Shown: one piece after another, positions 1,121-48,830 of the stretch | Layout: each line of letters opens with the position of its first letter | Numbering within the stretch: position 1 is the stretch's first letter | Assembly: GCA_035502855.1 (NCBI GenBank) | Contig: DATJTX010000024.1 | Location: 1 to 64,000, forward strand | Reading direction: 5' to 3' | Length of the DNA: 64,000 nt | Origin: Candidatus Baltobacteraceae bacterium | GTDB taxonomy: Bacteria > Vulcanimicrobiota > Vulcanimicrobiia > Vulcanimicrobiales > Vulcanimicrobiaceae | Notes under the pieces: generated by a model | The model's database searches: none | What the model was told of the DNA's origin: nothing | What the model saw: the letters and a program-made list of their open reading frames with translations, nothing else | Made by a program: the position numbers and the translations under genes

Positions 1121-1158
1121 GTCACCCTGAGGTGCGCCGAAGGCGCCTCGAAGGGCCG
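1121..1158. repeat. dispersed palindromic repeat, copy 1
   Basis: Begins GTCACCCTGAG and ends CTCGAAGGGC around a palindromic core (GGTGCGCC / GGCGCC). The same end signatures recur at 7477-7499, 7615-7653, 20278-20318 and 48760-48830. Intergenic here, between a protein gene and tRNA-Ile. Confidence 0.7.
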
Positions 1159-7343: not shown

Positions 7344-7476
7344 ACGCGGGCGAAGTACGCCGGGCGATCGCGCAGGTTCTCGAAATCTGTGAGGAAAGTC
7401 CGGGCTTCATCGGGCAGGGTGCAGGATAACGTCCTGTCGGGGCAACTCGAAGGAAAGTGCCACAGAAACATACCGC

Positions 7477-7499
7477 CCCTTCGACAGGCTCAGGGTGAC
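7477..7499. repeat. dispersed repeat, copy 2, inside rnpB helix P12
   Basis: CCCTTCGACAGGCTCAGGGTGAC. Its CCTTCGACAGGCTC half (7478-7491) pairs with GAGCCTGTCCAAGG (7507-7520), 13 of 14 positions, so the repeat itself makes the P12 stem. Confidence 0.7.
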
Positions 7500-7614
7500 A
7501 CACTCAGAGCCTGTCCAAGGAGCAAGGGTGAAATCGTGAGGTAAGAGCTCACGGAGCGCCGCGGTGACGCGCGCTCGGGTAAACCCCACCTGAAGCAAGA
7601 CGCTCGATCGTTGG

Positions 7615-7653
7615 TCCTGAGCGGACTCGGCGCAGCCGAGTCCAGTCGAAGGG
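7615..7653. repeat. dispersed repeat, copy 3, inside rnpB P16/P17 region
   Basis: Starts TCCTGAGC and ends GTCGAAGGG around a perfect 9-bp hairpin GGACTCGGC-GCA-GCCGAGTCC. It sits between the GAAGCAAGAC segment and the conserved 3' part of the RNA. Confidence 0.7.
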
Positions 7654-7757
7654 CCCGGACGGCCCGTCCGCACGAGCAATGTCGCACCGAGGCGCATGGT
7701 AACATGCGCCCCAGAGAGATGATCGCCGCGGCCCGAAAGGGCCGGCACAGAATCCGG

Positions 7758-7897
7758 CTTATAGGCGTACTTCGCAGCTTTAGCCCGCCTTAGCACCCGC
7801 AGGGTGCGATCGTACCGCAGCCGCGAACGCGGCGAGGAACGATCTTATAGGCGTACTTCGCAGCATTAGCCCGCCTTAGCACGTACTTCGCAGCATT
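7758..7897 (+). repeat. duplicated 3' end of rnpB
   Basis: A 39-base unit beginning CTTATAGGCGTACTTCGCAG and ending CGCCTTAGCAC occurs at 7758-7796 and 7844-7882 with one mismatch. A third partial copy (CGTACTTCGCAGCATT) is at 7882-7897. The second unit repeats the 3' strand of P1 beyond the expected RNA end. Confidence 0.85.
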
Positions 7898-20277: not shown

Positions 20278-20318
20278 GTCATCCGGAGGTGCGAGCCGTA
20301 GGCGAGCCTCGAAGGACG
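20278..20318. repeat. dispersed palindromic repeat, copy 4
   Basis: GTCATCCGGAGG ... GCCTCGAAGGACG with an inner GCGAGCCGTAGGCGAGC palindrome. It ends three bases before tRNA-Leu. Confidence 0.65.
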
Positions 20319-48759: not shown

Positions 48760-48830
48760 GTCATCCTGAGCCCTTCGACTCGCTGCGCTCGCTCAGGACG
48801 AGCTCCGCGGAGCGCCGTAGTCGAAGGACG
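48760..48830. repeat. dispersed palindromic repeat, copy 5 (longest)
   Basis: GTCATCCTGAGC ... GTAGTCGAAGGACG with two inner palindromic arms (GACTCGCTGCGCTCGCTC; GAGCTCCGCGGAGC). The most complete copy in the window. Lies between a protein gene and the tRNA-Ser terminator. Confidence 0.75.

Follow-up and report, generated by a model that had tools for sequence, protein, structure and literature searches.

A dispersed hairpin repeat in peripheral helices of the RNase P RNA of a Baltobacteraceae bacterium and its relatives

The RNase P RNA gene (rnpB) of a Candidatus Baltobacteraceae bacterium carries copies of a repeat that is dispersed through the genome, and the same repeat occupies rnpB arms of several relatives. 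We consider it very probable that a non-autonomous hairpin repeat of the REP kind, tagged with CGTC or TGTC, was inserted into rnpB at the tips of peripheral helices, with the ribozyme core left intact. The DNA analyzed (the window) comprises 64,000 nucleotides of contig DATJTX010000024.1 from this soil bacterium, whose genome is 3.33 Mb (96.6% complete).

When the window was searched with the RF00010 covariance model (gathering score, 100 bits), a class A rnpB was detected with a score of 246.6 bits over model positions 1-367, that is, at full length. This was the only rnpB match in the 3.33 Mb genome. The RNA is presumed to be active, because its gene is the sole copy in a genome that is 96.6% complete. 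Named relatives with a similar rnpB were Candidatus Eremiobacterota MAGs. The features of the gene were as follows.

7352..7777, forward strand: rnpB, RNase P RNA class A (RF00010 covariance model; single genomic copy)
7473..7523 (ends approximate), forward strand: entire P12 arm (RF00010 alignment; fold of -31.3 kcal/mol, z = -5.35)
7477..7500, reverse strand: exact 24-nt repeat copy with a TGTCAC tag, forming the P12 5' strand and loop (identical to L004 and L015; 17/17 match)
7504..7520, forward strand: diverged inverted repeat copy, P12 3' strand (14/17; tag-to-tag, minus-then-plus dimer with the copy at 7477-7500)
7613..7655, forward strand: accessory arm with the second repeat copy, CCTGAGCG-hairpin-AGTCGAAGG (insertion relative to RF00010; exact pattern match; fold)

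The 3' end of rnpB (7758-7796, including the P1 3' strand GGCGTACTTC) was duplicated 86 bp downstream at 7844-7882 with 97% identity, and a third, partial copy was found at 7882-7897. The duplicate P1 strand could compete with the first one. In each of four relatives (G027, G051, G058 and G066), two rnpB matches were found, of which the second was in some cases incomplete or lay at the end of a contig; contamination, split genes and genuine duplication are possible explanations.

In P12, positions 7477-7500 read CCCTTCGACAGGCTCAGGGTGACA, which is identical to the reverse strand of the dispersed repeat TGTCACCCTGAGCCTGTCGAAGGG. The opposite strand, TCAGAGCCTGTCCAAGG, matches the repeat in the other orientation, and this resemblance of the 3' half is partly due to its forced pairing with the 5' half. 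The initial annotation described the P12 stem as formed by the repeat itself. Its 13 pairs were counted, four in CCUU/AAGG and nine in GACAGGCUC/GAGCCUGUC; the stem is, however, best read as an inverted pair of repeat copies rather than one copy, because the tag-to-tag layout is the usual arrangement of close pairs in this genome.

The second copy, with CCTGAG and TCGAAGG at the ends of 7616-7652, bears the same end signatures as the copy in P12, as had been claimed. The covariance model confirmed the placement in P12, but the second site, initially assigned to the P16/P17 region, proved to be an accessory helix that is neither P16 nor P17, because the insertion falls between the P16 5' strand and P17. 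The P16/P17-arm copy of the window genome (G000) belongs to a longer class of the repeat and was found through the exact two-ended pattern.

The repeat is widespread in the host genome. The pattern CCTGAGN{0,30}TCGAAGG had 98 matches in the whole genome, in contrast to 5 for the same pattern reversed, in agreement with the genome-wide family that had been predicted. The three intergenic copies noted initially at 1121, 20278 and 48760 exist, the second with CCGGAG in place of CCTGAG.

1126..1154, forward strand: intergenic repeat copy (pattern match)
20281..20315, forward strand: intergenic repeat copy, CCGGAG variant
48764..48827, no strand assigned: intergenic, nested or inverted repeat copies (pattern match)

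These three copies adjoin tRNA genes. We regarded this as coincidence, because none of 30 other genomic copies lay within about 1.5 kb of a tRNA gene.

The consensus of 30 copies was (T/C)GTCA(T/C)CCTGAG...TCGAAGG(G/A), with an inner part that ranged from CTTG to long hairpins. Within the tag, 24 copies had G at position -5, 26 had T at -4 and 24 had C at -3; the base before these was in most cases T or C. The outermost pair varied among C-G, T-A and T-G (about 30 copies, loci L002-L031), and a tandem G-A mismatch (5'-TGAG/CGAA-3') was retained within the stem of the same copies. The retained mismatch together with the varying outer pair suggests a constraint on folded RNA or single-stranded DNA. 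Further, 7 of 10 close repeat pairs in the host genome were arranged minus-then-plus and none plus-then-minus, and six tag-to-tag dimers were found (control, 0). It has next to no probability that the rnpB arms are merely G+C-rich hairpins sharing short end motifs by chance: the seven-base motifs are weak alone, TCGAAGG occurring 21 times in the window when 12 are expected, but the exact 24-nt match in P12, the controls and the shuffles refute this explanation.

The bacterial family comprises 99 genomes, and rnpB was extracted from 88 of them; the search for carriers covered the phylum. P12 was about 16-40 nt long in most of these 88 genomes. A loose two-motif scan allowing two mismatches was uninformative, because conserved P10 letters, CTCGAAGG, match it; it was dropped, and 422 peripheral arms were instead scored one by one against the 17-nt repeat core, with the reversed core and shuffles as controls. 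At a threshold of 13 matching positions, 14 arms were recovered, against none with the reversed core and 0.75 predicted by shuffles; at a threshold of 14, 12 arms were recovered, against 0.05 predicted. The 14 arms comprised six in P12, six in the P16/P17 arm and two in P19, and no P3 or P13/14 arm among the 422 matched at 13 or more positions.

Six carriers were members of the genus g37: G094 and G090 carried the repeat in P12, G087, G088 and G089 in both P12 and the P16/P17 arm, and G091 in P19 with a further weak match in P12. In genus g20, the P16/P17 arm of G049-G051 held a decayed copy, and G080 had a weak match in P19. Both orientations occurred among the carriers. Strict patterns combining P12 with the repeat detected G000, G087, G088, G089 and G094 in the phylum, with none in controls. 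Core motifs were intact in the repeat-carrying genes, which scored 211-263 bits with RF00010, and RNase P RNA with these inserts most likely still works.

The initial annotation had raised the question whether close relatives lack the arms. The rnpB cores nearest to that of the window (G046 and G020) had no copy of this repeat in their arms, and a closer comparison was provided by G094 and G096, whose rnpB cores are about 99% identical with well conserved flanks. At P12, nine nucleotides in G096 correspond to about 37 in G094, the latter containing GTCATCCTGAGCTTGTCGAAGGAC. Of all the evidence, this pair shows most directly that the repeat arrived and that the arm did not simply evolve. No clean target-site duplication was seen; in G094, about 37 nt had taken the place of about 9. 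Directly 3' of rnpB, G094 (L103) has another repeat unit, and G096 does not have it.

The genomic copy numbers, obtained from pattern searches and a 400-kb sample, were higher in carriers. Each of the seven strong carriers had at least 62 genomic repeat copies, with a median of 145 versus 32 elsewhere (Mann-Whitney P = 0.003). High copy number alone does not place the repeat in rnpB, because the repeat-free rnpB of G096 resides in a genome with 210 copies. The same observation bears on the possibility that an rnpB arm was the source, from which the dispersed repeat escaped. The conserved P10 letters do resemble the 3' end of the repeat, but many relatives with tens to hundreds of genomic copies have a repeat-free rnpB, as does G096, and similar CGTC-tagged repeats are known from five phyla (PMC3733652). 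We consider such an escape very improbable.

The repeat was dense in rnpB. In g37, the three variable arms (1277 nt) held nine sites that agreed with the core at 14 or more of 17 positions; a 400-kb sample of five g37 genomes contained 13 such sites (control, 3). The arm density was thus about 217-fold above the genome average, or about 26-fold if all genomic copies are intergenic (12% intergenic DNA, an assumed figure), and common descent of the carriers inflates this enrichment. The differing sites and orientations argue for several insertion events, whose number is approximate because about 205 nt underlie the rnpB tree; the repeat may therefore have been inserted or retained preferentially. 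The enrichment would also be expected if the arms had been recruited because they benefit the ribozyme, by stability or protein contact, and selection kept the repeat there. We regard such recruitment as unlikely, although less so than an origin of the repeat in rnpB. The site, orientation and copy number of the repeat vary between sister species, the closest relatives are without it, the g20 copies look decayed and shared ancestry raises the apparent enrichment. Further, P12 is sometimes dispensable (PMC2858038). The insertions are probably near-neutral and tolerated rather than functional.

Insertion of a mobile repeat would account for these arms as follows. The dispersed repeat would enter helix tips that are free in length and sequence (P12, the accessory P16/P17 arm and P19). 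The insert would be the hairpin itself or two inverted copies folding into a hairpin, and the ribozyme core would remain intact because the insert folds alone or as such a pair. In the plus orientation (P12 of G094 and G087, P19 of G091), the repeat's own hairpin could form the tip. In the minus orientation (P12 of G000 and G090, P16/P17 arm of G087 and G089), the tag would lie in the loop and the body would pair with a complementary 3' strand, a layout that either an inverted pair or template switching at the tag would be expected to produce. Later mutations would preserve arm pairing. The repeat may have moved as DNA via an enzyme, or by replication slippage or template switching.

The initial annotation called the presence of a repeat in this ribozyme unusual. 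This was too strong, because repeats in RNase P RNA have been described before: the kind of event is known from the RPE repeats of Rickettsia and the STRR repeats of heterocystous cyanobacteria. STRR repeats were reportedly found in P12 of rnpB of heterocystous cyanobacteria by Vioque in 1997. As in those cyanobacteria, repetitive genomic DNA lengthens P12 here and differs between close relatives; unlike STRR, which are short tandem repeats, the present units are hairpin repeats, single or in inverted pairs, and occupy other helices too. In Rickettsia, tmRNA and M1 RNA contain inserted RPE repeats (Ogata et al., 2002, as cited in PMC2229807). There, as here, a dispersed palindromic repeat resides in the RNase P RNA gene and is apparently tolerated. 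In contrast to Rickettsia, as far as the review describes that case, up to two rnpB helices are affected at once here, three genera are involved, a second element family is present and there is a near-identical sister without the insert.

RPE-4 and RPE-6 belong to the CGTC-tagged REP superfamily, which has no dedicated transposase and occurs mostly as inverted pairs (PMC3733652). The present repeat shares with this superfamily a TGTC or CGTC tag at one end, inverted pairs and the lack of a dedicated transposase; AT or AC at the first stem positions, an eight-position stem and, for the short class, a loop of 5 nt are possible further similarities. It differs in that the host phylum is not in the published list (PMC3733652), a tandem G-A mismatch is kept in the stem and many copies have long inner hairpins instead of a 5-nt loop. 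We compared the 30 copies with the defining features of the superfamily. A tag of the prescribed form (CGTC, or TGTC/CCTC, at one end) was present, and the minus-then-plus arrangement of close pairs (7 of 10) corresponds to its HH dimers. The superfamily stem (8-9 bp, A-T in the first two positions, loop of 4-5 nt) can be matched to the short class only when the tandem G-A pairs are treated as stem, and the long classes have inner hairpins larger than that loop. No CCA consensus followed the repeat. Thus, the repeat resembles the CGTC-tagged family and we call it CGTC-like rather than a member, because the tag and pair orientation agree, the CCA tail does not and the stem and loop are ambiguous. 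We found no match to the exact repeat sequence in a literature search.

A GTAG-type REP/REPIN mobilized by a RAYT was also considered and rejected: none of the 30 copies had a GTAG tag, and no Y1_Tnp was found in the host genome. Y1_Tnp was absent from 95 of the 99 family genomes, including all seven strong carriers, and present in four; no RAYT that might act as mobilizer was found in the strong carriers, and we linked no transposase to the repeat.

A second element, E2, unrelated to the repeat, also occupies rnpB arms. E2 is hairpin-rich and roughly 100 nt long, with the core GGGG(G)CCCC-hairpin-GCGCAGGTGCGAAGCACCGGAGTGC-GGGGTCCCC. It was present, in some cases in two or more copies, in P12 of eight relatives from three genera (G012, G019 and G020; G067 and G071; G064, G065 and G066), among them one of the two whose cores are nearest to that of the window. 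It also occurred in P3 of G006, the P3 of whose relatives is without E2. Thus, one rnpB helix, P12, is used by two unrelated element families.

L040, L055, L057, L061, L092, L112, L113, L114, L120: rnpB loci with E2 in P12 or P3
L187:1410-1640, L143:1380-1670, L196, L184, L191, L188: further E2 loci noted

A covariance model search detected E2 in 39 of 147 phylum genomes, all within this one Eremiobacterota family, at 1-9 copies each. Of 24 loci inspected outside rnpB, 7 had a tRNA gene no more than about 60 nt away; at L187 and L143 the tRNA 3' end was repeated on the far side of E2 (about 26 and 20 bp, respectively). E2 is possibly a new miniature mobile element linked to structured RNA genes. 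Because the REP-like repeat is much denser in rnpB arms than in the genome and E2 occurs in P12, in P3 and 3' of tRNAs, we tentatively raise the possibility, which we hold to be rather doubtful, that hairpin elements of this bacterial family land preferentially in structured RNA genes (rnpB arms and tRNA 3' ends). If so, E2 would represent a novel type of miniature mobile element that targets such genes.

Bacteria differ widely in the peripheral helices of their RNase P RNA, and the origin of new helix sequence is rarely known; here, its source can be named. What is new is the lineage, the repeated occurrence across several helices and genera, the involvement of a second element family and the pair of genes with and without the insert. 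The near-identical genes of G094 and G096 make the insertion step directly testable by RNase P assay. Further, the several sites, both orientations and two element families are natural replicates for asking whether structured RNA genes tolerate or attract hairpin repeats. The rnpB genes of this family are a clear case of mobile repeats reshaping an essential RNA machine without obvious breakage.
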